A stretch of DNA of 23,937 bases from a virus. Both the position numbers and the translations under genes were made by a program. The stretch covers positions 1 through 23,937 of the IMG/VR virus record IMGVR_UViG_3300034066_001649. One strand, given 5' to 3'. The notes beneath the pieces were generated by a model. It was not told where the DNA came from, ran no database searches, and was given only the letters and a program-made list of their open reading frames with translations. Numbering within the stretch: the stretch's first letter is position 1; every line of letters starts with the position of its first letter. This document shows positions 7,401 to 23,880 of this stretch, piece by piece.

Positions 7401-10222
7401 AAATAGCCATAGTTGACATTTTGGGTCTCCCCTACGATGGCAACACAGTTTATCAAAGAGGCCTGGGAGGCAGTGAAAGTGCTGTCATTTACATGGCTGA
7501 AGAGCTTGCCAAGATTGGCTTTGAGGTAACTGTATTCAATGAGTGTTCGGCAGATGAATGTCAGCCGGGCACATACAACAGAGTGCGATATCAGCCATTG
7601 CAGGATATAGCCAACCATGTCTGTGATTTCGATATTGCCATCAGCAGCCGAACAGTAGAACCCTGGTTACCAGATCACATGCGAGAAGGCCTGATCTGCA
7701 AAGCTGATCCCAACATTTTCAACAACCTGCGAGCCAATGCCAAATACAAGGTGTTGTGGTTGCATGATACTTTCTGTTATGGTGATCAGCTGCTGGAACG
7801 CCTGGTTGTGGAAAATCACATACATAAATTATTTGTGCTGAGTGATTGGCACATGAGTTATGTGCTCAATTGTGATCATAATAACCGTAGAAACTTTGAA
7901 GTGCTCAAGAACAAAACCTGGATTACCAGAAATGGTGTTAAAAATTGGCTGGACTGGGTGGACATCAGTGAGAAAAATCCACATCAGTTTGTCTACAACA
8001 GCAGTGTGAGCAAGGGCATGGTACCCTTGTTGCAGAGAATATGGCCACAAATTCAGCAACAAATACCAGAAGCCACTCTCAAGATTGTGGGTGGTTACTA
8101 TAAATTCCGCAGTGATGTGCCACCTGATGAGCAAGAGCAAACATGGCATCAGTTGAGAGATCAATTTGATAATCAATTGGGTGTGGAATTCACAGGTATT
8201 ATTCCCCAAAAACAAATTGCTGAAATCCTAGCACACAGCAGCTTCATGCTTTATCCAGGAGCATTTCCAGAAACATTTGGCATCAGTGCCATGGAAAGTC
8301 TCAACTATCACACTCCCTTGATCACAACAAGGTTTGGTGCTCTGGAAGAGAATGCGCTGGAGATGGCTTGCTATAAAATTGATTATGCCATTGAGCCCAA
8401 TGGCTTGTTCCCCAACATCAACACAGATCAACAAATCCAACAATTTGTAAACCTAGCTGTCTGGGCGCACAACAACAAATATCTCCTGCAACAAAAACAA
8501 CAATATTGTGGTGTTGTGAGGGATCTTGTGGGTTGGAATCATGTGGCCCTACAGTGGAAAAAACATTTTCACACAGTGTTGGACATGCCTTTCAGTGTGG
8601 AAGAATTTGCCAGGGTGAGTGTCAATCAGCAACAACTGGGCGACATATTTGGCAGAAGAACTGTGAATCCAGAAGATCGACAAATCTACACCAAACCTGA
8701 ACAGCCCATATATGTGATATCACCTTTCTACAACTGTAGAGAATACATCAGCAGATGTATTGTGAGTGTGGCCACACAAAATTATGAATCCTACACACAC
8801 ATATTAATTGACGATGCCAGCACTGATGACAGTTATCTTATTGCTGAGCAAACCATCAACAGTTGTCCTGCTCACATAAGGTCCAGATTTGTGCTATTAC
8901 GCAACAAGGAGAATCAGGGAGCAGTGTTCAACCATCATCAGGGTCTGGAACACTGCAAGCTCATGGGCACACACAAGAATGCCATCATCATGCTGTTGGA
9001 TGGTGATGACTGGTTGGTAAATCGCAATGACATTTTCACCAAATTTAATCTGCATTTTGATAAAACCGCAGAATTCAGTTATGGCAGTTGTTGGAGTCTG
9101 GCAGACAATATTCCGCTGGTTGCGCAAGAGTACCCTCCCAGCATTCGCAGCCTGCGTGCCTATCGCAGTTACCAATTTAATTGGATAGTGCCCTACACCC
9201 ACATGAGAGCATTCAGATTTGAATTATATGATCGTGTCAACACCCTTCTCTGGAAGGACATGGATGGCAATTGGTTTAGAGCTGGGGGAGATACTCCTGT
9301 GTTCTACAGTTTGCTGGAATGTGCTCATCCTGACAAGATCAAAGTCATGAAAGAAATTGTGGTAAACTACAATGACCTCAATCCTTTGAACGACTATAAA
9401 ATCAATAGCTCTCAACAGTTGGCAAATGCACATTATGCTCTAGAACAAACCAGCGAACTAACAGGCTCACCACCTATACAATCACATACAGATGTAGCTC
9501 AGAGCCATGAGCACCAGGAGTTGTCACCAGGTGTGCCCTTGTTTGCCACCATGCCCCAACTGCCACAAGCTGTGGCGCCACCACCTGCGCCCACATATAT
9601 TAGACCCAATCGCATATTGGTGGCCATCCCCACTGCCAAATACATTGAAGTGGAAACCTTCAAGAGCATTTATGACCTGGATCTTCCTCGCAATACCGAA
9701 TTGGACTTTCAATATTTCTATGGATATAATGTGGAGCAGGTGCGCAATATCATGGCGCAATGGAGCCTTTTGAATGGATTCAGCTGGATGTTGAGTGTGG
9801 ACAGTGACATCATCATACCCAAACACACACTGCAACGTCTGCTGGACATACAGGACAGCACCAGGGCCATCAGCAGCGGCACTTATATTCAAAGAAAAGA
9901 CAATCTACGCATTCCAGAAATCTACATCCACAATCCAGAAACTGGTGGACACCAGCATCTGCCCATCGAACAAGCAGAAATAGACCAGGTGTTGGATGTG
10001 GAAGCAGTGGGCTTTGGATGTTGTTTGGTGCGTAGAGATGTGTTTGAACAGGTGGGCAACCCCTGGTTTACCTATCACAGCAGCATTGAATTTGACAAAA
10101 TTCTCAGCGAGGATGTGGATTTCTGCATGAAAGCCAAACAGCATGGATATCAGGTTGTGGTGGACACAGGATTGAAACTGGGCCACATCAATAAGACTGT
10201 GTTGCAGGTAAATAAAGTTTAA
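7397..10222 (+). CDS. Triple glycosyltransferase fusion (GT4-like, GT2-like, GT-A-like)
   Basis: The 941-residue product joins three transferase modules. Residues 1 to about 395 are GT-B/GT4-like: GGSES near 24-28, a Rossmann-type second half and PETFGISAMES (291-301) with the E-x7-E donor motif. Residues about 436-665 are GT2-like: PIYVISPFYNC, DDAS (472-475) and the metal-binding DGDD (535-538). After a linker rich in Ser, His and Pro (about 685-735), residues 738-941 form another GT-A-like module: RILVAIPTAKYIEVETFKSI, the DSD at 802-804 and SEDVDFCMKAKQHGY near the end. The gene overlaps the methyltransferase gene by four bases and has AAGGA before its ATG. It may build a glycan on a virion protein, on DNA or on host surface material; the acceptor is unknown. 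Confidence 0.88.
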   Translation: MKIAIVDILGLPYDGNTVYQRGLGGSESAVIYMAEELAKIGFEVTVFNECSADECQPGTYNRVRYQPLQDIANHVCDFDIAISSRTVEPWLPDHMREGLICKADPNIFNNLRANAKYKVLWLHDTFCYGDQLLERLVVENHIHKLFVLSDWHMSYVLNCDHNNRRNFEVLKNKTWITRNGVKNWLDWVDISEKNPHQFVYNSSVSKGMVPLLQRIWPQIQQQIPEATLKIVGGYYKFRSDVPPDEQEQTWHQLRDQFDNQLGVEFTGIIPQKQIAEILAHSSFMLYPGAFPETFGISAMESLNYHTPLITTRFGALEENALEMACYKIDYAIEPNGLFPNINTDQQIQQFVNLAVWAHNNKYLLQQKQQYCGVVRDLVGWNHVALQWKKHFHTVLDMPFSVEEFARVSVNQQQLGDIFGRRTVNPEDRQIYTKPEQPIYVISPFYNCREYISRCIVSVATQNYESYTHILIDDASTDDSYLIAEQTINSCPAHIRSRFVLLRNKENQGAVFNHHQGLEHCKLMGTHKNAIIMLLDGDDWLVNRNDIFTKFNLHFDKTAEFSYGSCWSLADNIPLVAQEYPPSIRSLRAYRSYQFNWIVPYTHMRAFRFELYDRVNTLLWKDMDGNWFRAGGDTPVFYSLLECAHPDKIKVMKEIVVNYNDLNPLNDYKINSSQQLANAHYALEQTSELTGSPPIQSHTDVAQSHEHQELSPGVPLFATMPQLPQAVAPPPAPTYIRPNRILVAIPTAKYIEVETFKSIYDLDLPRNTELDFQYFYGYNVEQVRNIMAQWSLLNGFSWMLSVDSDIIIPKHTLQRLLDIQDSTRAISSGTYIQRKDNLRIPEIYIHNPETGGHQHLPIEQAEIDQVLDVEAVGFGCCLVRRDVFEQVGNPWFTYHSSIEFDKILSEDVDFCMKAKQHGYQVVVDTGLKLGHINKTVLQVNKV

Positions 10223-10236
10223 AGGATTACTCTCAT

Positions 10237-11370
10237 ATGACTGCACTGTATGGTTTTGGTAACAATTCATTGTATTATTTTAGCCAAAGTGGTGCAGTCA
10301 CCAGTGTTGTGGGTGATCCCACCGCATTTGTTCCAGTTGGTCACACTCCTTTTGATGTGCATTCTGCGTGTGTGGGTGCAGCCTACAATAGTGTTCCCAA
10401 CCCTCCTAATTGGATAGCTGTGAGCAACCGAGGAGAGATAGCCTACAGTGAAGATCTTGCCCAGCCCTGGGCCAGGTATTTTCTAACTCAGCTGCCTGCA
10501 AATATTACCCCTTTGTTGAATATCCGGCGCATCATTGTACATCTGGGGTTGTATATCATCATAGGCAGCCAAAAAGATCCCCAAACACTTCATGAATATG
10601 GTGTTATCTACACAAGCGCCTTGGGCAACGCTGCCAACACCTGGTATTTGGCATACAAATGCACAGACAGTCACAGCATGATCATGGATGTCTCTGCTGT
10701 TGCTGCCACTACCACCCTTGTGGCTGTGGGATACAAACAGGGCATGAAAACTGCCTTATTGCTTGTAAGCAGTGATTCAGGACTCAACTGGGAGGAACAG
10801 TCCATAGACACCAATGCAATTAAGGGAGCTATCTACAGTGTTGCCATTGCAGGCAATCCCATAAATGTTGTGCCTGCCGACACCATCAAATTGTATCTGG
10901 GCGGTAATGGTTGGGTAAGTATTGTGGACTTTGCCACCAATCAATTCTATTTGTTGACTGATCAATTTTTATTGAATGGTAGGCCCAAACCCATTTATAG
11001 ACTGATAAGTGTCAACAGCGAGGATAGCCCACCCACAGGCAAAATCATTACCAGTAATATTGTGGCTCTTCAAAACCACAAAATTTATTTTACCAGCAAT
11101 TTATTTGATTGGCAAACTGTTGAACAACCTGGCTACAATTTTTCCAGTGCTGCATACAGTGAGTTGTTCAACAGCGGCACATGGTATTTTGGCAGTGAAA
11201 GCATGCTCAACCAATACAATTTGTTCACTCTCAAAACCAATCCTATAACAATAACCAGAATTGTCAATGACGTAAGCTATACTACAACCTATCACCAGAT
11301 TGCTGAGGATCAGGATCTCCTCAAGTTCAACTGTGTTTTACAGATTCAGGAATTTGTTGAAGGCAGTTGA
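10237..11370 (+). CDS. Beta-propeller-like protein with a BNR/Asp-box motif
   Basis: The 377-residue protein is rich in beta-strand patterns and contains SSDSGLNWEEQ, which fits the Asp-box (BNR) consensus SxDxGxxW. The repeating blocks (for example IAVSNRGEIAYSEDL and IYFTSNLFDWQTVE) look like blades of a sialidase-type propeller. No sialidase catalytic residues can be recognised, so an enzyme name is not justified. AAGGA at 10222-10226 precedes the ATG, fifteen bases after the glycosyltransferase stop, so the two are probably co-transcribed. A role in the virion, such as glycan binding on a fibre or baseplate decoration, is plausible but is inference. Confidence 0.7.
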   Translation: MTALYGFGNNSLYYFSQSGAVTSVVGDPTAFVPVGHTPFDVHSACVGAAYNSVPNPPNWIAVSNRGEIAYSEDLAQPWARYFLTQLPANITPLLNIRRIIVHLGLYIIIGSQKDPQTLHEYGVIYTSALGNAANTWYLAYKCTDSHSMIMDVSAVAATTTLVAVGYKQGMKTALLLVSSDSGLNWEEQSIDTNAIKGAIYSVAIAGNPINVVPADTIKLYLGGNGWVSIVDFATNQFYLLTDQFLLNGRPKPIYRLISVNSEDSPPTGKIITSNIVALQNHKIYFTSNLFDWQTVEQPGYNFSSAAYSELFNSGTWYFGSESMLNQYNLFTLKTNPITITRIVNDVSYTTTYHQIAEDQDLLKFNCVLQIQEFVEGS

Positions 11371-11405
11371 CACACCGGTAAGGCACAGCCACACTTGTGT
11401 ATTAT
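11367..11405 (+). promoter_or_regulatory. Possible promoter region (CAGTTGACACAC element)
   Basis: TTGACA at 11367-11372 overlaps the stop of the preceding gene. The twelve bases CAGTTGACACAC (11364-11375) recur exactly at 18155-18166 before the clamp gene. The best A/T-rich box, TATTAT at 11400-11405, is 27 bases away, too far for sigma70. CACACT at 11390 has normal spacing but poor sequence. It may be a phage-specific promoter. Confidence 0.35.
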
Positions 11406-11428
11406 CCTAACACATGGAGTTAAGTAAA

Positions 11429-11710
11429 ATGACTGGTGCAACAACTGCAAATTTTGGTCCAGCCGACAAAGCCAAGATCACACACCTCATCAACAGTGGT
11501 ATTGATGTGATGAGAGAAATTGCCACCCTCAAGGAAGGGCTCAAGGACACTGTTACTGCTGTGGCAGATGAACTGGATCTGGAAAAGAAAACCCTCAATC
11601 GTGCCATACGTCTTGCCTACAAGAAGAGCCAGAACAACCAAAATCCCATCGAGGATGCTCAGGAAGAACTGGACACTGTGGAGCAACTGTTGGCAGCAGC
11701 CGGAGTTTGA
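11429..11710 (+). CDS. dsbA: DsbA-like double-stranded DNA-binding protein
   Basis: The 93-residue protein resembles T4 DsbA, a small dsDNA-binding protein linked to late transcription. The shared pattern is a helix around INSGIDVMREIATLKEGLKD, then ADELDLEKKTLNRAIRLAYK, then an acidic C-terminal helix (EELDTVEQLLAA); T4 DsbA has DELGVDGKMFNRLLALYHK in the same place. I chose the ATG at 11429 because GGAG at 11416-11419 sits nine bases before it, whereas the in-frame ATG at 11414 overlaps that site. The stop overlaps the next start as TGATG (11708-11712). The location just before the polymerase fits a replication and transcription module. The assignment rests on remembered similarity, not on a search. 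Confidence 0.7.
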   Translation: MTGATTANFGPADKAKITHLINSGIDVMREIATLKEGLKDTVTAVADELDLEKKTLNRAIRLAYKKSQNNQNPIEDAQEELDTVEQLLAAAGV

Positions 11711-11979
11711 TGTTTAACAAACTCATAGGATCTCTGTGCAGAGAATGGCACAGAGATCCTATTCTCATCTGTATGGAAGTTGTGGGAACTGTTGCCAGCG
11801 TGATTGCTGCAATAGTTCTCAGTTTTAATCTAGTGGGTATCTGGGCAGTTTATTGGATGTGGTGTGTGGGTAGCATGAGCTTGACTTTTACCAGTTATAG
11901 ACGCAACAATTTGCTACTCACAGGCTTGATGGTGTTTTATACCATCCTAAACATTATAGGACTTTGGAATTTTGCATGA
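11710..11979 (+). CDS. Small membrane protein with two to three transmembrane helices
   Basis: The 89-residue protein has a short basic N-terminus and hydrophobic stretches at about 17-40 (ICMEVVGTVASVIAAIVLSF), 44-60 (VGIWAVYWMWCVGSMSL) and 68-88 (LLLTGLMVFYTILNIIGLW). The ATG at 11710 overlaps the previous stop (TGATG) and its own stop overlaps the polymerase start (ATGA at 11976-11979). Codons 6-18 form one of the strongest inverted repeats in the window, so the hairpin may tune translation of this gene or of the polymerase below it. Similar small hydrophobic proteins occur before polymerase genes in marine T4-like phages as far as I recall. The function is unknown. Confidence 0.75.
   Translation: MFNKLIGSLCREWHRDPILICMEVVGTVASVIAAIVLSFNLVGIWAVYWMWCVGSMSLTFTSYRRNNLLLTGLMVFYTILNIIGLWNFA
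11725..11762 (+). repeat. Perfect 15-bp inverted repeat inside a coding region
   Basis: ATAGGATCTCTGTGC (11725-11739) and its exact reverse complement (11748-11762) flank an 8-base loop, AGAGAATG. The hairpin begins 15 bases after the start codon of the small membrane protein. No T-run follows, so it is not a normal intrinsic terminator. Confidence 0.9.
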
Positions 11980-14204
11980 CATATGTGGATGCTTACTTGA
12001 ACCGTGAAAAAAATCAAATTGACGTTGTGGAACGTGTGAATGGCAAAAGAGTCTACAACAGGTATCCCAGCAGATACGTGGTGTATTTTCCCAGTGCCAA
12101 GGGCAAATACACCAGCATTTTTGGTGACCGTCTGGACAAATATGAAACCCACAAGCATGAAGATTTTCAACGTGAACTGAGGATGTTACCCAAGGACAAG
12201 CAATTTGAAAGTGACAGCAATCCCATCTTTAGATGCTTTTATGATCACTACAAAAATGCTTTGCCCCCCAAGCTGAATGTTGCATTCTTCGATTTAGAAG
12301 TGTCTTTTCACAAAGAACGTGGGTTCAGCAGCACTGAAGAAGCATTCAATCCCATCACAGCAGTTAGTGTGTATTGCAATTGGTTGAGCACCAATTTCAC
12401 ACTGGTTCTCAAACCACAGACCTATACCTGGCAACAGGCAGAAGACATATGTGCAAAGTTTGACAACACAGTGTTGTGTGAAGATGAAGCACAGTTGATT
12501 GATGTGTTTTTGACACTGATTGAAGATGCTGACATCCTCAGTGGTTGGAATTCAGAGGGGTATGATATTCCCTACTTGCACAATCGTATTGTTCAGGTGC
12601 TCAGCAAAGAACACACCAAAAGATTGTGTTTGTGGAACAGACTGCCTCGCAAGAGGGAATATGAAAGCTATGGCAAACCCACAGTCACATATGATCTAGT
12701 GGGCAGAGTGCATTTGGATTATCTGCAACTGTATCGCAAGCACACCTATCACGAGATGCACAGCTATCGTCTGGACTTTGTGGGCGAATATGAAGTGGGT
12801 GAAAAGAAGGTGGCATATGAAGGCAGCCTGGACAAGCTCTACAATGAGGATTTTGAGAAATTCATCGCCTACAACAGACAGGACGTGATGCTGTTGGTGA
12901 AAATTGATCTCAAGCTTCAGTTTATTGACCTGTGTAATGCTCTGGCACATGACAATGGAGTGTTGCTGGCCACCACCATGGGATCAGTTTTGTTGATTGA
13001 TAATGCCATCACCAATGAAGCTCATGATCTAGGCAGGATTGTTCCCATACGATCCAGAGATAATCTGCAGTACAAGCGTGAAGATAATGACGAGGATGCA
13101 GAACCCCGAGGCATTGTGGGTGCATATGTGGCTGATCCCATACAAGGCATGCACGACTGGATTGGCGGTGTGGACATCAATAGTCTGTATCCATCCACTA
13201 TTCGCAGTCTCAACATGAGCAAGGAAACTGTGGTGGGTCAGATCCGAAGCACCAGCACAGAAAAGCTGATCACACATCGTATAAACAAGGAAAAAAGATC
13301 ATTTGCTGACAGCTGGAACGAAATGTTTGGCACCATTGAGTACACTCAGGTAATGAATCGTGAACTCAGCATGCTCACTGTGGACTTTGAAGATGGCACC
13401 ACAGCTGAACTGAGTGGTGATGAATTGTATCAGTGGATATTTCAGAATCCCAGCAAGCCCATGGCCATCAGTGCCAATGGCACAATTTTTGATCTCAGTC
13501 AGGATGGTGTGGTGCCAGGCCTACTTGCCAGATGGTACAAGGAGCGCAAGGAACTGCAAGCTGAAGCCAAAAAATATGGCAAAATGGCTGATGAACAATC
13601 AGATGAGGACAAAAAAGCAGAATATCGTCAGTTGGCTGAATTCTATGACAGACGCCAATTGATCAAGAAAATTTTGCTCAACAGCTTGTATGGAGCAGTT
13701 GGCAACAGCGCCAGCCTTTACTTTGATAATAGGATTGCACAAAGCACCACACTCACTGGTAGGTGTATCGTCAAACACATGGCAAGCAAAATCAATGAAG
13801 TGATTGCAGGTGATTACAATCACAAAGGTGCTGCTATTGTGTACGGAGATAGTGTAACAGGTGATACAATAGTCCGCACTGACAGTGGAGAAATGACCAT
13901 TCAACAATTGTTTGAAGAATGTGTTGAGCATGCTAAACTATCAGATGGCAAAGAGTATGGGTTGTGGAGTCAAGCAAAAGTCATTGGCTTCAATGGGCAT
14001 GATATGCAGCCTGTTACAAGTGGTATTGAAGCTGTAATGCGACACAAAACAAAGAAAAAGTTATATCGCCTTACTACTGCTAATGGCAAACAGGTAACTG
14101 TTACAGAAGATCACAGTATTATGGTGGATAGAGACGGGTTCCTTGTGGAAGTCAAACCAAATGATATCCAAGAGGGTGATAACATTATCACTCTTACACT
14201 ATAA
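11976..14204 (+). CDS. 43: DNA polymerase family B (gp43), N-terminal part fused to split intein N-half
   Basis: Residues 1-625 are the N-extein of a T4-type replicative polymerase. The 3'-5' exonuclease motifs are FFDLEV (D106, E108), GWNSEGYD (N192, D197) and YNRQD (Y299, D303). Polymerase motif A is DINSLYPS (D400) and motif B is KKILLNSLYG (564-573). The frame reaches the start of motif C, VYGD (622-625), and then runs directly into an intein N-half of 117 residues ending in TAA at 14202. The start at 11976 is preferred over an in-frame TTG at 11964 because it overlaps the preceding stop as ATGA. The protein alone lacks the second half of the active site and must be joined to the product of 14574-15593 by trans-splicing. 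Confidence 0.95.
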   Translation: MTYVDAYLNREKNQIDVVERVNGKRVYNRYPSRYVVYFPSAKGKYTSIFGDRLDKYETHKHEDFQRELRMLPKDKQFESDSNPIFRCFYDHYKNALPPKLNVAFFDLEVSFHKERGFSSTEEAFNPITAVSVYCNWLSTNFTLVLKPQTYTWQQAEDICAKFDNTVLCEDEAQLIDVFLTLIEDADILSGWNSEGYDIPYLHNRIVQVLSKEHTKRLCLWNRLPRKREYESYGKPTVTYDLVGRVHLDYLQLYRKHTYHEMHSYRLDFVGEYEVGEKKVAYEGSLDKLYNEDFEKFIAYNRQDVMLLVKIDLKLQFIDLCNALAHDNGVLLATTMGSVLLIDNAITNEAHDLGRIVPIRSRDNLQYKREDNDEDAEPRGIVGAYVADPIQGMHDWIGGVDINSLYPSTIRSLNMSKETVVGQIRSTSTEKLITHRINKEKRSFADSWNEMFGTIEYTQVMNRELSMLTVDFEDGTTAELSGDELYQWIFQNPSKPMAISANGTIFDLSQDGVVPGLLARWYKERKELQAEAKKYGKMADEQSDEDKKAEYRQLAEFYDRRQLIKKILLNSLYGAVGNSASLYFDNRIAQSTTLTGRCIVKHMASKINEVIAGDYNHKGAAIVYGDSVTGDTIVRTDSGEMTIQQLFEECVEHAKLSDGKEYGLWSQAKVIGFNGHDMQPVTSGIEAVMRHKTKKKLYRLTTANGKQVTVTEDHSIMVDRDGFLVEVKPNDIQEGDNIITLTL
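13851..14201 (+). other. Split intein N-half (Ser1 type) at the polymerase YGD/TDS site
   Basis: The 117-residue intein half starts at Ser1 in SVTGDTIVRTDSGEM, straight after YGD. Block A is SVTGDTIV and block B is TVTEDHSIMV, with the TxxH pattern needed for the N-S acyl shift. It ends EGDNIITLTL and then stops. Codon choice differs from the surrounding polymerase (for example CTT ACT ACT GCT). Confidence 0.92.
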
Positions 14205-14598
14205 TATCACGCTAACCAAACTCCTGTCAGGTATAAGTGAACTACCGCGCAGCAAGCTGTCGCGGCTTCCTGGCTCCTTATCTCATACCAACAACAATGC
14301 TCCCTTTGGTAAATGGAGTAATGACATGAATAGGTATGTGGTATATGACGTCAAACATTGTAATTGTATTGTTGAATTCCATGGAGATTATTGGCATGCT
14401 AATCCTAAAATTTACTCTGCTGATGATCTTATTAGAGGCAAGCGTGCTCAAGACATTTGGGTACAGGATGAACAGAAGCTTGATATTGCACGAAATGCAG
14501 GCTTAAATGTGATGGTAGTATGGGAAAGCGACTACCTTGCACGCAAAGAACAGATTCTAGAGGAAGTTTCAAGATGGATATTGAATACACAAAAGTAA
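14161..14598 (+). CDS. Vsr-like (EDxHD) homing endonuclease between the split-intein halves
   Basis: The core NCIVEFHGDYWHANP (about 72-86) followed by RGKRAQDIWVQDEQKLDIARNAGLNVMVVWESDY is the signature of the very-short-patch-repair-like EDxHD homing endonucleases (I-Bth0305I type). They were described mainly from fractured phage genes that carry split inteins. The gene lies in a different frame from both intein halves. It overlaps the N-half by about 44 bases, and its stop at 14596-14598 overlaps the start of the C-half. The start is uncertain: ATG 14161 has GTGGAAG before it and keeps the SEL/SKL helix that normally begins this domain, while ATG 14326 with TGGAG also works but would drop it. 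The Glu usually found after SK[LI] is Ser here, so activity is doubtful. Confidence 0.75.
   Translation: MISKRVITLSLLHYNITLTKLLSGISELPRSKLSRLPGSLSHTNNNAPFGKWSNDMNRYVVYDVKHCNCIVEFHGDYWHANPKIYSADDLIRGKRAQDIWVQDEQKLDIARNAGLNVMVVWESDYLARKEQILEEVSRWILNTQK
14244..14265 (+). repeat. GC-rich hairpin inside the homing endonuclease gene
   Basis: CCGCG (14244-14248) pairs with CGCGG (14261-14265), and the bases between them can pair further (CAGC with GCTG) around a very small loop with one bulged T. It lies just after the stop of the polymerase/intein N-half gene. No T-run follows. Confidence 0.6.
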
Positions 14599-14699
14599 CA
14601 AAAGTTGAATGCCTAGGCGAGGTAGATGATTACGTGTATGACATTAGTGTTAAAAACCAAGATCCTTATTTCTTTGGTAATGATATACTCTTGCACAAT
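14574..14699 (+). other. Split intein C-half ending in His-Asn before Thr+1
   Basis: The 42 residues contain block F, VYDISVKNQDPYFFGNDIL, and block G, LLHN, followed by Thr as the +1 nucleophile. The end FFGNDILLHN closely resembles the phage gp41-1 intein C-half as I remember it (FYANDILTHN). Confidence 0.93.
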
Positions 14700-15593
14700 A
14701 CTGATTCCGCATATTTCTCAGCATATGCAGTCATGAGCCAGCTCAAGGAATTTGAGGATTTTGATTGGAGCAAGGAAGCAGTTGTGCAATTGTATGATCA
14801 GATAGCTGACATCACCAATGCAAGTTTTCCAGAATTCATGAAAATAGCATTCAATGTTCCAGACAACAAATGTGTGATCAAGGCAGGCAGAGAGCTGGTG
14901 GCCACCAAAGGGCTGTTTATCACAAAAAAGCGTTATGCTGTGCTGATTTATGACAAGGAAGGCAAGCGCAAGGATCTGGATGGCAAACCTGGTGAAATCA
15001 AGGCCATGGGTCTGGATCTCAAGAGGAGTGATACTCCCAAACCTGTGCAAGAGTTCCTGCATGAGATTCTGGTTCTGGTGCTCACAGATGGCACCAAGAA
15101 GCAGGTGTTTGATCGCATCAGGCAGTTCAGAACAGGGTTTGCCAGCTGGCCAGCTTGGGCCAAGGGCACACCCAAGAGGGTGAACAAGCTCACATATTAT
15201 GGTGACCTCATGAGAAAGCAGGAGGGTGGCATGAAGGATGTGTTCAGCCGGACCCACGAGGATGCCAAGAAGACCATTCCGGGCCATGTGAGAGCCAGCC
15301 TCAACTACAATCAGTTGAGAAAGATTTACAATGATTACAGCAGTTTGGAGATCACTGATGGATTCAAGGTGACTGTGTGTAAATTGAAAGACACCGTCCT
15401 GGGGTTGCAGAGTGTGGCACTGCCTGCTGACCAGCTGGTGATCCCAGACTGGTTCAAGCAATTGCCCTTTGATAATGATGCTATGGAGGAAGCTCTCATC
15501 ACAAAGAAGGTGGAAAACTTGTTGGGTGTGTTGGGTTGGGATCTGAATGATGGCCGCAACAACAAAACTTTTGATGACATGTTCAGTTTCTGA
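14574..15593 (+). CDS. 43: Split intein C-half fused to DNA polymerase C-terminal part (gp43)
   Basis: The 339-residue protein starts with a 42-residue intein C-half and continues with the polymerase C-extein, TDSAYFSAY onward, which completes motif C as YGD/TDS. KKRYAVLIYD and KAMGLDLKRSDTPKPVQEFL match T4 gp43 blocks. The tail KTFDDMFSF resembles the C-terminal sliding-clamp-binding peptide of T4 gp43. The start ATG at 14574 is set by AGAGGAAG at 14558-14565 and by the length of known intein C-halves; upstream in-frame codons have no such support. After trans-splicing the polymerase would have 922 residues (625+297), close to the 898 of T4 gp43. The gene overlaps the endonuclease gene by 25 bases. 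Confidence 0.95.
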   Translation: MDIEYTKVTKVECLGEVDDYVYDISVKNQDPYFFGNDILLHNTDSAYFSAYAVMSQLKEFEDFDWSKEAVVQLYDQIADITNASFPEFMKIAFNVPDNKCVIKAGRELVATKGLFITKKRYAVLIYDKEGKRKDLDGKPGEIKAMGLDLKRSDTPKPVQEFLHEILVLVLTDGTKKQVFDRIRQFRTGFASWPAWAKGTPKRVNKLTYYGDLMRKQEGGMKDVFSRTHEDAKKTIPGHVRASLNYNQLRKIYNDYSSLEITDGFKVTVCKLKDTVLGLQSVALPADQLVIPDWFKQLPFDNDAMEEALITKKVENLLGVLGWDLNDGRNNKTFDDMFSF

Positions 15594-15605
15594 TCAAACA
15601 CTGAG

Positions 15606-15638
15606 ATTTGGAGGCTATATATTATATAGCCTCCAAAT
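15606..15638 (+). repeat. Perfect 16-bp palindrome after the polymerase gene
   Basis: ATTTGGAGGCTATATA (15606-15621) and its exact reverse complement (15623-15638) are separated by one base. It sits 12 bases after the polymerase stop and ends 16 bases before the start of the next gene. A T-run is absent, so it may be an RNA-processing or mRNA-end-protecting hairpin rather than an intrinsic terminator, or a binding site for a dimeric regulator. Confidence 0.9.
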
Positions 15639-15654
15639 AACAAAGGAAAACCAA

Positions 15655-15942
15655 ATGCTGCACAGAATCAAATCTTGGGTTAGAAGTCTCGTGGCTGGTC
15701 CAGAACAACCACTAGTTGTGGGTGAGCCTATTACTCCTATTGTATTTATCACACCACCTGTGGTTAAGCAAGCACCTGCACAAGAGCATATGCCTGTCAA
15801 ACCAGCCAAGCCACCAAAACCAAAAAAAGTTCCTGTGCAGAAGGAACAAACTGCAACTGTGGAGAAACTAGTCAAGGCTGACCTGCCAGCCAAGCCACGT
15901 GCTGTGAAAAAAAGAAAAAGTGTTGACACTGCTGGCAATTAG
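15655..15942 (+). CDS. Small Lys/Pro/Ala-rich basic protein
   Basis: The 95-residue protein starts with an amphipathic basic helix (MLHRIKSWVRSLV), has a short proline-rich hydrophobic segment (EPITPIVFITPPVV) and then a long low-complexity basic tail (KPAKPPKPKKVPVQKEQ and AKPRAVKKRKS). AAAGGAAAA precedes the ATG at 15655, and the palindrome lies just upstream. It probably binds nucleic acid or a partner protein through its charged tail. No family is recognised, and low complexity makes homology hard to judge. Its 3' end carries the -35 box of the promoter for the next gene. Confidence 0.65.
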   Translation: MLHRIKSWVRSLVAGPEQPLVVGEPITPIVFITPPVVKQAPAQEHMPVKPAKPPKPKKVPVQKEQTATVEKLVKADLPAKPRAVKKRKSVDTAGN

Positions 15943-15951
15943 CTGTATTAT
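15923..15951 (+). promoter_or_regulatory. Near-consensus sigma70 promoter before thg1
   Basis: TTGACA (15923-15928), a 17-base spacer and TATTAT (15946-15951) make the best bacterial-type promoter I found in the window. The -35 box lies inside the preceding gene. A start near 15958 would give a leader of about 24 bases before the original Thg1 start codon at 15982. Confidence 0.6.
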
Positions 15952-15977
15952 GATCTCATAATATAAATTGTGAGATC
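15952..15977 (+). repeat. 7-bp inverted repeat just after the promoter
   Basis: GATCTCA (15952-15958) and TGAGATC (15971-15977) flank a 12-base A/T-rich loop that contains TATAAATT (15962-15969). It follows the -10 box immediately. It could be an operator, a hairpin at the 5' end of the mRNA, or a late promoter box held in the loop. Confidence 0.6.
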
Positions 15978-15981
15978 AATC

Positions 15982-16056
15982 ATGGACGCACTAGGAGATC
16001 GCCTCAAAGCATATGAGGCACAGGAAACTGCCCGGACGCTGATTCCGGGCCATTAG
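15982..16056 (+). pseudogene. Remnant N-terminus of the original thg1 gene
   Basis: The frame from ATG 15982 gives 24 codons before TAG at 16054. It reads MDALGDRLKAYEAQ then ETARTLIPGH, and aligns with the N-terminus of the intact Thg1 gene at 16951 (DLGDRMKEYESSETSRKLMKF). Removing 16051-17025 would join its 23rd codon (Gly) in frame to LPIYARIDGR of the intact copy, with no residues gained or lost. The remnant keeps the strong promoter. It was evidently cut off when the endonuclease segment arrived, and may still be translated as a short peptide. Confidence 0.75.
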
Positions 16057-17025
16057 TTACTATGACTTTGGCAGTCTGCCCCTAACCCATCCGCATCCAG
16101 GGTGTTCTTTGGCACAAATTTCCTTCTGGCTATCGTTGTACCATTTTTTACCTTGCTGCGATGTTTTCATTCTAGAGTGCATCTCTTCTGTCCATTTAAC
16201 AAGTGATCCCAGAATCCAACCTGAGCCTGGACACTCTCTAGCTTGGCGAGTATTTGAACCATTATTCCAATATTTAAACCCACGTCGTGCCTTACCCGCA
16301 TTTATTGCATGCTGCAATGGTAGCTTTTTGCCCTTCCTATGAGAAGGCTTCCCCTTCTGGGCTCTACTCATATTATTCCTAGTTTCATCTGTTATTACTT
16401 GTAGAGCACGTGCCTTTTTAATTTTTAATCTTGTTTCGAACGACACAACCTTGTTTTCTTGAAGTCTTACCACTTCCTCCCTTATTCTTTGGTACACGGA
16501 ACCTACTACCTTATGTCTTTGACTCTTGTCACCTATACAGCACATACGCCATACAGCATAAATCATTTTGTTTTGATCTCTGCCTGTTGTCATCTTAGTC
16601 AATAATAAGTGACATACAAAATGTTCCTTAGCAGTAAGCCTTGCTAGATTTGAAGAGTCATTGGTTCCTTTGAGACATTTAGGAATGACATGATGTATTT
16701 CGGTATAAATATCGTTAGGAATTTGACGATCCTTTGACTTGATTATTATACTAAAGTACCATTTGGAGTATTTGTTCGACAGGAATGGATGACAAGCCGG
16801 AATAACTGGCTGTGGTAATAACTTCATGCTGGATGCTCCATAACAGCGTTTAGAGTGGTTGGGATGTAGGAGTCCGTGAACCACATGATATTTAGTTGAC
16901 TGATAGTTCAATATCGGATAAGTTTTATGACAATTTAAAGGTTAGCATATATGAGTAATGATGACCTCGGAGATCGTATGAAAGAATATGAATCTTCAGA
17001 AACAAGCAGAAAGTTAATGAAATTC
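16051..17025. mobile_element. Endonuclease segment with replacement thg1 N-terminus
   Basis: The boundaries are inferred from the alignment of the two Thg1 N-termini. The segment holds the antisense HNH gene, a 3' intergenic region with its own ribosome binding site (AAAGG before 16951) and 25 new Thg1 codons. Its codon use (AGA, TTA, TCT) differs from the rest of thg1. Exact ends cannot be seen without an uninterrupted relative. Confidence 0.5.
16060..16827 (-). CDS. HNH homing endonuclease with NUMOD3-like repeats
   Basis: The 255-residue protein begins MKLLPQPVIP. It contains YTEIHHVIPKCLKGTNDSSN and LARLTAKEHFVCHLLL, the HNH motif of phage homing endonucleases. NUMOD3-like DNA-binding repeats follow (FETRLKIKKA, then TDETRNNMSRAQKGK), and two C-terminal blocks of the form W-N-G/D-S ... 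P-G-x-G-W-x-x-G (KYWNNGSN ... GSGWILG and KWYNDSQK ... GCGWVRG). The ATG at 16827 has GGAG eight bases upstream; the frame continues upstream only to a TTG at 16911 without similarity to the family. It lies antisense between two versions of the Thg1 N-terminus, so thg1 is the likely homing site. Its stop is a few bases from the stop of the remnant. Confidence 0.85.
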   Translation of the reverse strand: MKLLPQPVIPACHPFLSNKYSKWYFSIIIKSKDRQIPNDIYTEIHHVIPKCLKGTNDSSNLARLTAKEHFVCHLLLTKMTTGRDQNKMIYAVWRMCCIGDKSQRHKVVGSVYQRIREEVVRLQENKVVSFETRLKIKKARALQVITDETRNNMSRAQKGKPSHRKGKKLPLQHAINAGKARRGFKYWNNGSNTRQARECPGSGWILGSLVKWTEEMHSRMKTSQQGKKWYNDSQKEICAKEHPGCGWVRGRLPKS

Positions 17026-17781
17026 TTGCCCATCTATGCACGCATCGACGGGCGTGGATTCAGCAAGTTTACCCGTGGCATGGAGAGACCCTATGACACC
17101 AGGATGACTCAGGCCATGATCCATGCCACCAAGATCTTGGTGGACAAAACACATGCCACTGTAGCCTTCGTTCAAAGTGATGAAATCAGCCTGGGCTGGA
17201 CCAACATGGATCACAACAGTCCTGTGATTTTTGATGGCAAGCTGCACAAACTTCACAGTGTGTTGGCCAGTCTTGCCACCATTGCATTTGTGCAGGGAAT
17301 TCAGGCTCATTTTGAGGATACACAGTCCTGGCTGGATCGCATGCCGCATTTTGACGCTAGAGTGTTCAATGTGCCCAACCTACAAGAGCTGGCCAACTGT
17401 TTTTTGTGGAGAAATTTGGATTGTTTGAAGAATAGTGTGACCCGAGCTGCACATCACTACTACAGCCACTCAGAGCTGCAACATAAGAATAGTGATCAGC
17501 AGCAGGAAATGCTGTTGAGCAAGGGCATTAACTTCAATGACTTCCCAGCAGAATTCAAACGCGGCACATTTGTTCGTCGTCGCCAAGCTCATCAGGAATT
17601 TGATCCAGTGGCCTGGGTGTTGATCCCCTTGGCTCATAGGCCGCCTCTGGATCAGGTGATCCTGCGCACACAAACTGTGGCATATGACCTGCCACCGTTG
17701 AGCAGAATCCCCAACAGGGTGCTAGTGTTGTTTGAGGATGCACAACCAGAGAATGCAGATGACACCACCCATCAACTATAA
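16951..17781 (+). CDS. thg1: Thg1-like tRNA(His) guanylyltransferase / 3'-5' polymerase
   Basis: Thg1 family enzymes add nucleotides in the 3'-5' direction to the 5' end of tRNA; bacterial-type members repair truncated tRNA 5' ends. The 276-residue sequence has RIDGRGFSKF (31-40, metal ligand D33), TRGMERPYDTRM and FVQSDEISLGW (73-83, metal ligand D77), all diagnostic. Length is typical. The ATG at 16951 follows AAAGG at 16936-16940 and gives a normal family N-terminus (LGDRMKEYE). The first 25 codons are A/T-rich and unlike the rest, because they arrived with the adjacent HNH segment. In the phage it may repair tRNAs damaged by host defence nucleases, which is inference. Confidence 0.93.
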   Translation: MSNDDLGDRMKEYESSETSRKLMKFLPIYARIDGRGFSKFTRGMERPYDTRMTQAMIHATKILVDKTHATVAFVQSDEISLGWTNMDHNSPVIFDGKLHKLHSVLASLATIAFVQGIQAHFEDTQSWLDRMPHFDARVFNVPNLQELANCFLWRNLDCLKNSVTRAAHHYYSHSELQHKNSDQQQEMLLSKGINFNDFPAEFKRGTFVRRRQAHQEFDPVAWVLIPLAHRPPLDQVILRTQTVAYDLPPLSRIPNRVLVLFEDAQPENADDTTHQL

Positions 17782-19841: not shown

Positions 19842-20222
19842 ATGAACAAAAAAACCTTTGTTTATTGCACATTTCAAAAAGAAGCCTATCATTTTTTTCC
19901 AGGCGCTGATCAAGATCCACAGTATGCCACTGGTGATGAATATGACGTAAGTCATCTTGCTTCCAGACACATGCACTATTTCAATTTTAAGGTTTGGGTT
20001 GAGGTTACACATAATAACCGTCAAATCGAATTTATACAATTGCGACGTTGGATTGAAAGCCTGTATGCAAAGGGCACGCTAGAGCTAAATCACCAAAGTT
20101 GTGAAATGCTGAGCGATGCCCTTTGTGAAAAATTGGCAGAACGTTATCCTGGTATGGAAATTAGGATTGACGTCAGTGAAGAAGGAATCAACGGTTCATA
20201 TACTGAGTTTGTACCCGAATGA
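19842..20222 (+). CDS. QueD/PTPS-like T-fold protein lacking the catalytic Cys
   Basis: 6-carboxytetrahydropterin synthase (QueD) makes an early precursor of 7-deazaguanines. Aligned by eye to E. coli QueD, this 126-residue protein keeps the zinc ligands: H17 in KEAYHFFP (QueD EAAHRLP) and H43, H45 in SRHMHYFNFKVWVEV (QueD RLHGHSFMVRLEI). It also matches at QIEFIQLRRW (QueD WIIDFAELK) and has a Glu at VSEEG (QueD VKETC). The catalytic Cys and the LDHH segment are not present. It is therefore either a diverged enzyme or a binding protein with the same fold. I recall relatives in other marine T4-like phages. AAGGA precedes the ATG. The antisense endonuclease frame runs into its last 79 bases. 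Placement near a DpdA-like gene supports the pathway link, but this remains inference. Confidence 0.6.
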   Translation: MNKKTFVYCTFQKEAYHFFPGADQDPQYATGDEYDVSHLASRHMHYFNFKVWVEVTHNNRQIEFIQLRRWIESLYAKGTLELNHQSCEMLSDALCEKLAERYPGMEIRIDVSEEGINGSYTEFVPE

Positions 20223-21052
20223 TTATTGATAGAGTTATTATATCTCTCTAGTAGTTGTTCAAGTGTTATGTGGCATTTGGTGTTCTTGCGACAATTATCC
20301 AAATGCCACATCATTCTTAAGTTTGTGTAATGTCCTATAACCTCTGCAGGCACGTTATTCTTGAATCCTTCCTCAACAGAATAAATGTGGTCCACATGGT
20401 ACTCAAACCTGCTACGTGGAAGATTATCCGGGTTGATTACATAGTAATAATCATGATATGATCTTGCAGTTATAGACTTGACAGCTAGCCTGTATTTCTC
20501 TAGCTCTGATCTTAAATGATCAGCACGTCGTCTACCCTGTGCTACATGCACATCATTTATCTTCTTAAGGATGTCTGAATTTTTAGATACGTTAGTAACT
20601 CCATACCTGTCCACAACAGTCTTTACTTGTTTTTGCTTAATTTCCTCGACTTTGAACACATTATCAGTACCATATTTTTCAAGACAGGTGTTAATGACTT
20701 GATCCCGAAATGTCTTTGATTGGGATGCCCATTCTGTGCCATAAACTTCCATAGTAGTCTTCTTGGCCTTGGTAACGACGTCTGGATTAGCGGATCTACA
20801 AGATATTGAGCAATTATTAGCATAACCTCCTTTAATACCTTTGAACTTCAGAGGCTTGATTTGACACACTGGACACAATGGTTCTTCGGGACTACCGTTC
20901 AAATATAGTTCATGATATGCCATTCTGAACAGCTTCCAAGACTGAGGATACTTCAAAGTCTTATCATTCATGAAGAGCTTTATCTGAGGCTTTAAGTCAG
21001 GTGCTTTCTTGCATGTGTCTAGTAAATGTTGAATAGTATCTTGGCTTATCAT
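20144..21052 (-). CDS. HNH homing endonuclease with zinc finger and YG repeats
   Basis: The 302-residue protein has an N-terminal Cys pair block (CPVCQIKPLKFKG ... NNCSISC), repeated helix units of the form K-T-x-x-E-x-YG (TTMEVYGTEW, NTCLEKYGTDNV, KTVVDRYGVTNV) and a C-terminal HNH domain, EYHVDHIYSVEEGFKNNVP, followed by NLRMMWHLDNCRKNTK. This is a common free-standing phage homing endonuclease type. ATG 21052 has GAGG upstream on the minus strand. The last 26 residues run antisense through the end of the QueD-like gene, as if the element landed just past that gene's stop and lost its own. Its likely target is the neighbouring glycosyltransferase gene. Confidence 0.87.
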   Translation of the reverse strand: MISQDTIQHLLDTCKKAPDLKPQIKLFMNDKTLKYPQSWKLFRMAYHELYLNGSPEEPLCPVCQIKPLKFKGIKGGYANNCSISCRSANPDVVTKAKKTTMEVYGTEWASQSKTFRDQVINTCLEKYGTDNVFKVEEIKQKQVKTVVDRYGVTNVSKNSDILKKINDVHVAQGRRRADHLRSELEKYRLAVKSITARSYHDYYYVINPDNLPRSRFEYHVDHIYSVEEGFKNNVPAEVIGHYTNLRMMWHLDNCRKNTKCHITLEQLLERYNNSINNHSGTNSVYEPLIPSSLTSILISIPG

Positions 21053-22221: not shown

Positions 22222-23880
22222 ATGACAAACATCAGCAGTCCCAACCCACATTTGAAAAACTCCTATGATAACATGAAATCTGTAGTGGGCAGAGACATGT
22301 GGACCACCAATCAGGATTTTGCCGTTTTTTTGCCAAGTATTTCAGCAATTTACGCGAGACTGGTGAGCAAACCCAATGACAGAACTGTAGCTGGATTGCC
22401 TGATGGACTCAGGGATTTGGATTTCCTGCAACCCAACACCAACCTGTTCTACTATCCCATTGCACTCTACAGCAGTGGTCACAGTGTATGGGATCTAGCC
22501 CAAAGCGACATCCAGGAGAGCATGGTTCAAAAACGTGACAAAAACGCAACTGTGATCATAGGCGACAGTGGTGGATATCAGATTGCCACTGGTGTTCTCA
22601 AATGGCCCTGGCAGAAGAAAAAGGATCAGAGCGACCAGGATTGGGTCAAGGACAAGGATGCTATTCGCATGCAGATCCTGCGTTGGCTGGAACACACATG
22701 TGAATACAGCATGGTGTTGGACGTGCCCACAGGCAGTTTGTTGAAATTTGGCAATGACCCCATCACAGGCGAAAATCTGCATCCTGGTGTGAAAAACTTC
22801 CGTGACTGTCTCAACAGCAGCATGGAAAACCACGATTTCTTCATACGAAATCGCAAGGAGGGAGCAACTCAATTCCTCAACGTGCTACAGGGCAGAAATC
22901 AAGATGAAGGTGATGTTTGGTGGGATGTTGTAAAAGACCTACCCTTTGAGAGCTGGGCATTCTCCAACGTGCAAGCCAGCAACTTTGCCATCAACCTGCG
23001 CAGGATCATCATCATGCGTGACGGAAAATATCTGGACAACAGAGACTGGATCCACTATCTGGGCAATGGCAAGATCAAGGCTGGATGTGCCCTCACTACC
23101 CTACAGCGTGCCTGGAGAAAGTTCATCAATCCCCAGGTGACCCTCAGTTATGATGCAGCCAGTCCTTTTGTGAATGTGGCCAAAGGCCACATCTATTACA
23201 GTTGGGAAGTATCTCCTCAGAGTATTGCATTCAAAGGAGGAGCAGTGCCTGACCGAAAAGACCTCAAGGGCAACCAGGAACTGTTTCAGGATTGGATCAA
23301 TCGTCACAACACAAAATGGGCTGTGAAAACAAGTGAAGTGGCCAAACATGTGACAATTGGTGACATCTGTGTCAAAGGATATGAGGACCTCAACTTCAAG
23401 AAAGTTGCCTTTAGCCACCGTGAACTGGAAAGTCTAGAATATCAAACCAGCCTGGAAGCGCAGCATGCTGAAAAATTCCGCTACAGTGATGCCTATCGTC
23501 AGTATCTCATGCACGAACATGAGGAACATGGTAATGGTTTGTTTGGTTGGGGCAAGCAGGAATTTCAAGAATATGAGAAATACCAGGTCAAGTGGCCCAG
23601 CAGCATGGACGGATTGAGCTACGTGTTGGGCATGAGTCACAATGTGGAATTGCACATTGATGCCATTCAGCATGCGTGTGCCATGCAGGACTTGCCTGCT
23701 CATGAACGCAAACAGCACATCAGTTCAGATTTGATTGAGTTTGCTGGTGGTTTGTGTGAAGAAATTTTCACATCAGAAAAGCCCATGGACCTGATTGACA
23801 AACATGCCAGAATGCTCACAAAAATTACAGGCATGGATGCTGACAACAACATCACCATGGATTTGGCAGAATTTGTATGA
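22222..23880 (+). CDS. dpdA: DpdA-like member of the tRNA-guanine transglycosylase superfamily
   Basis: TGT exchanges guanine for a 7-deazaguanine base in tRNA; DpdA relatives do so in DNA. Motifs along the 552 residues are GDSGGYQ (114-120; TGT DSGGFQ, acid/base D115), DVPTGSLL (167-174), FLNVLQGRN (218-226; TGT FGIVQGG), WIHYLGNGK (276-284; TGT YLMGVG) and LSYDAASPF (308-316) with D311 at the place of the TGT nucleophile. The C-terminal CxCxxC zinc site of tRNA TGT is absent, and the protein is about 170 residues longer than bacterial TGT, both in line with phage DpdA. The glycosyltransferase gene lies ten bases upstream, and another gene follows with its own ribosome binding site. Family membership is strong. 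The DNA rather than RNA substrate is inferred. Confidence 0.82.
   Translation: MTNISSPNPHLKNSYDNMKSVVGRDMWTTNQDFAVFLPSISAIYARLVSKPNDRTVAGLPDGLRDLDFLQPNTNLFYYPIALYSSGHSVWDLAQSDIQESMVQKRDKNATVIIGDSGGYQIATGVLKWPWQKKKDQSDQDWVKDKDAIRMQILRWLEHTCEYSMVLDVPTGSLLKFGNDPITGENLHPGVKNFRDCLNSSMENHDFFIRNRKEGATQFLNVLQGRNQDEGDVWWDVVKDLPFESWAFSNVQASNFAINLRRIIIMRDGKYLDNRDWIHYLGNGKIKAGCALTTLQRAWRKFINPQVTLSYDAASPFVNVAKGHIYYSWEVSPQSIAFKGGAVPDRKDLKGNQELFQDWINRHNTKWAVKTSEVAKHVTIGDICVKGYEDLNFKKVAFSHRELESLEYQTSLEAQHAEKFRYSDAYRQYLMHEHEEHGNGLFGWGKQEFQEYEKYQVKWPSSMDGLSYVLGMSHNVELHIDAIQHACAMQDLPAHERKQHISSDLIEFAGGLCEEIFTSEKPMDLIDKHARMLTKITGMDADNNITMDLAEFV

Follow-up and report, generated by a model that had tools for sequence, protein, structure and literature searches.

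A phage thg1 gene with a probably replaced 5' end beside a free-standing homing endonuclease gene, and an RNA leader shared by phage homing endonuclease families

In the WHO elements of Torulaspora and Lachancea yeasts, the 3' end of FBA1 is replaced by a resistant version, and the previous FBA1 end is left as a fragment which can act as a recombination arm (PMC7282813). Hybrids formed by mobile open reading frames (ORFs) are known in fungal mitochondria, at atp6 of Allomyces and at atp6, atp9, cox2 and nad3 of Glomus (PMC3630166). In phages, homing endonuclease genes (HEGs) can split a gene, as mobE does in Aeh1 nrdA and mobA in T4 gene 60/39 (PMC2988022, PMC3014915). In T4-type HEGs a late promoter goes together with RNA structure that covers the ribosome-binding site (PMC2988022, PMC3014915), and hairpins sequestering this site are found at I-TevI, I-TevII, I-TevIII, segB and Aeh1 mobE (PMC2988022). 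Here we describe a locus in the 23,937-base virus record IMGVR_UViG_3300034066_001649 (the window, analysed over its whole length), in which an antisense HNH-type HEG lies between a stub of the tRNA-His guanylyltransferase gene thg1 and an intact copy of that gene. We put at roughly 78% the probability that this is a free-standing homing element which moves by end replacement, as the WHO elements do at FBA1.

The stub (Table 1) starts at an ATG at 15982, ends with a stop codon at 16054-16056 and encodes MDALGDRLKAYEAQETARTLIPGH. In the closest relative, IMGVR_UViG_3300042869_000651 (loci L001, L130 and L219), thg1 is single and uninterrupted, beginning MDALGDRLKAYEAQETARKLIPGVPVYSRIDGRGFSKF, and its 5' end matches the stub at 67/69 nucleotides. 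The stub is also present in an independent contig (L129). Uninterrupted thg1 was found in all gene-order-sharing neighbours with thg1 sequence (L131-L134, L140, L211-L217), and in none of the relatives was the first frame an unrelated gene. Most of these neighbours have the N-terminus LGDR(L/I)KxYE, with GDRMKGFE in L140 and L212 alone. The original prediction, made from the window alone, took the 23-codon remnant before the HNH gene for the old thg1 N-terminus. Because the uninterrupted thg1 of related phages starts with the stub sequence, this view and the acquired nature of the N-terminus on the intact gene are both supported. Since the L001 start equals the stub at all but two positions, the match is not due to chance.

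The intact gene spans 16951-17781 and its product matches Pfam Thg1 over the whole protein (5e-30) and phrog_4717 (4e-80). Its N-terminus aligns with that of the stub at 12/20 residues, as had been predicted. The functional 5' end is poorly conserved, sharing 38/66 nucleotides (57.6%) with L001 compared with 84% in the thg1 body, and homology to L001 DNA picks up again at approximately 17035. GC content is 0.57 in the stub, 0.33 in the new 5' end and 0.50 in the body. The GDRMKEYE of the new end is the form found in nearly all other viral thg1 loci recovered; the end as a whole is of the MSxDDLGDRMKEYE type seen in Thg1 of other phages, whereas the local type is (M)DxLGDRLKxYEAxETxRKLIPG. The new 5' end is thus best read as foreign. 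The original prediction, that the element had carried a recoded 5' end of its target, was right on the anatomy and nearly right on the cause: the end appears to have been replaced, but by a foreign sequence rather than a recoded one.

The protein encoded between stub and intact gene matches Pfam NUMOD3 above the cut-off (2.4e-05) and the homing endonuclease family phrog_655 (4.6e-40). With both a nuclease motif and a NUMOD DNA-binding motif, it appears to be a NUMOD3-type free-standing HNH enzyme. Translation is likely to start at ATG 16827 rather than TTG 16911, because an RNA leader occupies 16825-16886.

Table 1. Features of the thg1 locus in the window.
Feature	Position	Strand	Remarks
Stub, former 5' end of thg1	15982-16056	+	23 native codons, then CAT and stop
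Left junction of insertion	16050-16051		Between GGGC and CATTAG; L001 alignment breaks after GGGC; confirmed by L129
HNH/NUMOD3 homing endonuclease gene	16060-16827	-	Antisense to thg1, between stub and intact thg1
Two-hairpin RNA leader of the HEG	16825-16886	-	Ends at start codon
TAAATA, T4-type late-promoter core	16889-16894	-	Just upstream of leader; direct sequence
Putatively acquired foreign thg1 5' end	16951-17034	+	MSNDDLGDRMKEYESSETSRKLMKF and a few more codons; right limit uncertain
Native thg1 body (tRNA-His guanylyltransferase)	17035-17781	+	84% identity to L001

This leader came to light in the HNH genes of the window and L219, which share a 40-nucleotide stretch at and upstream of their start codons with 85% identity; the two proteins give a weak and partial match (28%). 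A first leader pattern matched 23 viral contigs, in each case before an ORF judged HEG-like by inspection, and a pattern from the 5' half and promoter alone recovered further cases that also bore the 3' half. A covariance model (R1) was built from 18 leaders, including that of the window. In loci retrieved by HNH protein similarity alone it matched strongly upstream of HEGs, so part of the link between leader and HEGs is independent of the patterns. A third pattern (GUAGUU stems) gave at least 120 matches. Approximately 179 leader relatives were found, essentially all before HEGs. The window leader, itself one of the 18 model-building sequences, scores 62 bits against R1 (E about 2e-16).

The window leader has a first stem of GUGGUU/AACCAC plus GGA/UCC and a second stem around the Shine-Dalgarno sequence. 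Across 106 distinct aligned leaders, standard pairs fill 98.4% of hairpin 1 pair cells, and two-sided compensatory changes occur at all ten pairs, with 170 such cells compared with 38.6 in shuffles. The covariation score was reached by 0/500 shuffles and slid controls fail, in an alignment that was fitted to R1 and thus leans toward the model. The variety of stem 1 is visible in the raw sequences, which include GUGGUU/AACCAC, GUAGUU/AACUAC, GCGAGU/ACUCGC, GUUCAU/AUGAAC and others. Pairing was lost when arms were swapped between leaders (0/20,000), and the Shine-Dalgarno stem scored a mean of 3.71 with its own partner against 3.15 with swapped ones (0/5000). At E up to 1, Rfam contained no family matching the leader, either in the window or at seven leader loci, and the leader was not found at four HNH loci of isolated phages. 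One leader had no blastn match in 50,697 phage records, a search that did not extend to an R1 scan of whole isolate genomes, and one leader pattern had no match in genome contigs.

TAAATA stands just upstream of 177/179 leaders and fits T4-type late promoters. Its reverse complement, TATTTA, occurs within codons 2-5 of 160 of the 179 HEGs at several offsets and so in more than one reading frame, giving MTIY/MNIY, MIFI/MLFI or MYL; neither the window HEG nor that of L219 has it. In read-through RNA, TATTTA may base-pair with the copy of the promoter; alternatively, it may be an outward promoter. Outward extension of the pairing was 0.96 compared with 0.78 for swapped pairs (2/2000), and inward extension was not above swapped pairs. 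Because the outward value barely exceeds the control and the inward one does not, we leave the pairing as a hypothesis.

Proteins encoded downstream of the leaders were assigned by PHROGs and Pfam to NUMOD3, HNH, GIY-YIG, I-TevI-like, SegE-like, TnsA-like, DUF7487 and DUF723 types. Several short ORFs behind leaders are broken HEGs, and a few have no family assignment. Motif-based classing put 58/160 in 'other', so all family statements rest on Pfam and PHROGs. Leaders approximately 98% identical precede HNH and GIY-YIG genes (L302/L306, L328/L350), and the leader is thus evidently exchanged between nuclease families. On balance, we think that a single portable expression cassette is common to, and exchanged among, unrelated phage HEG families, and that HEGs of this class can home by replacing a target gene at either end. 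This cassette would, somewhat more probably than otherwise, comprise a late promoter, a hairpin at the 5' end of the transcript, a Shine-Dalgarno hairpin and the TATTTA of codons 2-5 pairing with the promoter's read-through copy.

End replacement was also sought elsewhere, by comparing the two flanks of each of 138 HEG units with the leader for direct repeats at the translated level. At a threshold of 30 bits 5/138 units passed, compared with 93/18,906 unmatched flank pairs. The window unit (E 7e-5) is the sole 5' case seen. Besides it there are four clear cases, all at 3' ends: polB (L219), thg1 (L002; repeat of 98 residues, E 2e-31), a PTPS/QueD-like gene (L256; E 4e-12, with two small ORFs between HEG and stub) and a 3'-5' exonuclease gene (L344; E 9e-9). 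At L002 (3992-5955) a GIY-YIG/NUMOD3 HEG with the shared leader has replaced the thg1 3' end, leaving a 98-residue stub. A weaker repeat of 12 residues was seen at a T4 neck-protein gene (L087). In every case of end replacement the HEG is antisense to its target, and in L002, L256 and L344 it overlaps the 3' end of the intact gene. Among 115 leader-HEG units with a scorable 3' neighbour, mechanical ORF calls made without a control set placed 76 tail-to-tail, 44 of these 76 overlapping the neighbouring ORF. At L219 (10316-11580), polB runs into the tail EAKTHDVFDNLFG and its stop codon, followed by an antisense HNH_3 HEG with the shared leader and, beyond this, a decayed remnant of the native polB 3' end. 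The polB tails of near relatives resemble xARNNETFDxxFSF, unlike EAKTHDVFDNLFG.

We propose that the HNH enzyme of a donor phage would cut a sensitive thg1 near codons 23-27, and that repair would copy in the donor unit of stub, antisense HNH gene and resistant 5' end. The right side of the break would recombine inside conserved thg1 sequence (RIDGRGFSKF), whilst the left would be joined at codon 23, perhaps via the donor's own stub. This would yield a hybrid but intact thg1, whose divergent start should escape recognition by the enzyme, and the old start of the recipient would persist as the stub. By analogy with WHO elements it is plausible that the cleavage site was destroyed and that Thg1 still functions; the hybrid would be immune, and transfer would have run from donor into the window lineage. 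The enzyme would be expressed late in infection from its own T4-type promoter through the two-hairpin leader. As the second stem holds the Shine-Dalgarno sequence, translation is probably low or conditional, the leader presumably acting as a repressor.

The best-surviving alternative, which we nonetheless consider improbable, is passive recombination with another phage that swapped the thg1 5' end, an HEG with some other target happening to sit at the boundary. HEGs have been reported at the borders of regions that phages have exchanged (PMC10448857), and cleavage of thg1 by the HNH enzyme is something we infer. However, the order of stub, HEG and replaced end is seen again at further genes and in further phages, each time with the HEG antisense, and HEG and target ends often overlap. 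Far less credible is a local duplication of the thg1 5' end in which one copy drifted and the HEG inserted between the two. Both copies do start with LGDR(L/M)KxYE, and the stub frame has stayed open, but the drifted copy would then have to be the functional one, with 58% nucleotide identity at its 5' end against 84% in the body, a GC content far below that of the stub and a motif of foreign type.

Very unlikely, too, is a metagenome assembly artefact joining two strains. The record comes from a mixed population and is a fragment, and its right junction has a single witness; the left junction, by contrast, recurs in a different sample, where L129 covers window positions 9520-16807 at 99.96% and supports both stub and HNH gene, and similar architectures occur in unrelated contigs. 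Rejoining of stub and thg1 body by an intron or otherwise at the RNA level is less likely still: removing the insert would give a continuous frame, as the original prediction had pointed out, but 15900-17150 has no Rfam match at E up to 5 and no group I or II core, the stub ends in a stop codon, and splicing is not needed because the intact thg1 carries its own start codon.

Several observations weigh against homing by end replacement itself. The right junction is seen in one contig, the window. No donor, with this HNH gene beside a GDRMKEYE-type thg1, was present among 47 thg1 loci and 80 HNH loci, nor among 8 loci recovered with a degenerate pattern of the 5' end. The Pfam HNH match of the enzyme (0.012) falls below the cut-off, with the motif HH..P.....N visible. 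The window leader's single-sequence fold is not unusually stable (z -0.27), a measure which is uninformative for single leaders, the case for the leader being built on covariation. DNA to the left of the polB junction in L219 is 99.98% identical to the window and that to the right 81-89%; because identity holds up to the tail and divergence follows, this junction could reflect either recombination or an assembly chimera. Since only five units passed the 30-bit screen, end replacement is either a minority route or one that usually loses its stub.

Elsewhere in the window, a DUF7487 homing-endonuclease-like gene on the minus strand (within 19842-21052, ending at 20144) overlaps the 3' end of a small gene (19842-20222) by 79 nucleotides. 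This small gene is more similar to L213, L214 and L216 (76%) than to the otherwise closer L134 (44%); it is possibly a further HEG-linked gene replacement. The window polB (11964-15593) is in two parts with a separate endonuclease-like ORF (14143-14598; phrog_22677) between them; the N-part closes with the N-half of an intein and the C-part opens with the C-half, an arrangement resembling a fractured gene with a split intein. The polymerase and intein segments of L217 are nearly continuous, and the phrog_22677 ORF is missing there. An ORF of 552 residues (22222-23880), about 70-88% conserved in relatives, has no Pfam or PHROGs match.

If our reading of the thg1 locus is correct, phages possess an intron-free and intein-free route by which a homing gene can occupy an essential gene, bringing a resistant replacement end with it. 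Chimeric phage genes that have a stub next to an HEG would also be explained by end replacement. With the shared leader as an RNA handle, HEGs can be sought in viral DNA that lacks annotation, and the sharing suggests that the control of selfish nucleases is itself a transferable module. Judged against the open-access literature the leader family is the most novel part of this work, and it may have been described elsewhere.

In type, the element is a new phage form of a known mechanism, and its 5' version appears unusual. Like a WHO element, it is a free-standing HEG that has on one side an intact hybrid gene, whose replaced end is divergent, and on the other a fragment of the old end, without splicing; the replacement end has diverged from the native one (58%) and the rest of the gene has not (84% of nucleotides), as a WHO-type mechanism would require. 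WHO elements, however, act at 3' ends in yeast nuclei through intein-like zinc-finger fusion proteins, whereas the window holds a phage HNH enzyme at a thg1 5' end, and cleavage has been shown for WHO whilst we deduce it here. The window element does not belong to the WHO gene family proper, as its protein is of the HNH/NUMOD3 type rather than an intein-like protein fused to zinc fingers. In the fungal mitochondrial hybrids an endonuclease ORF likewise supplies a foreign gene end and the native end is left behind, but these are C-terminal ends with LAGLIDADG or GIY-YIG enzymes. As with mobE and mobA, an HNH HEG has inserted in an essential phage gene; those leave a split gene, whereas thg1 here stays whole via its replacement end. 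The leader resembles the hairpins of T4-type HEGs in placing a late promoter beside structure affecting the Shine-Dalgarno sequence. Those hairpins were described singly, whereas the present leader is one covarying two-hairpin family common to unrelated nucleases, and it has a further hairpin on the 5' side, where the transcript is expected to begin.
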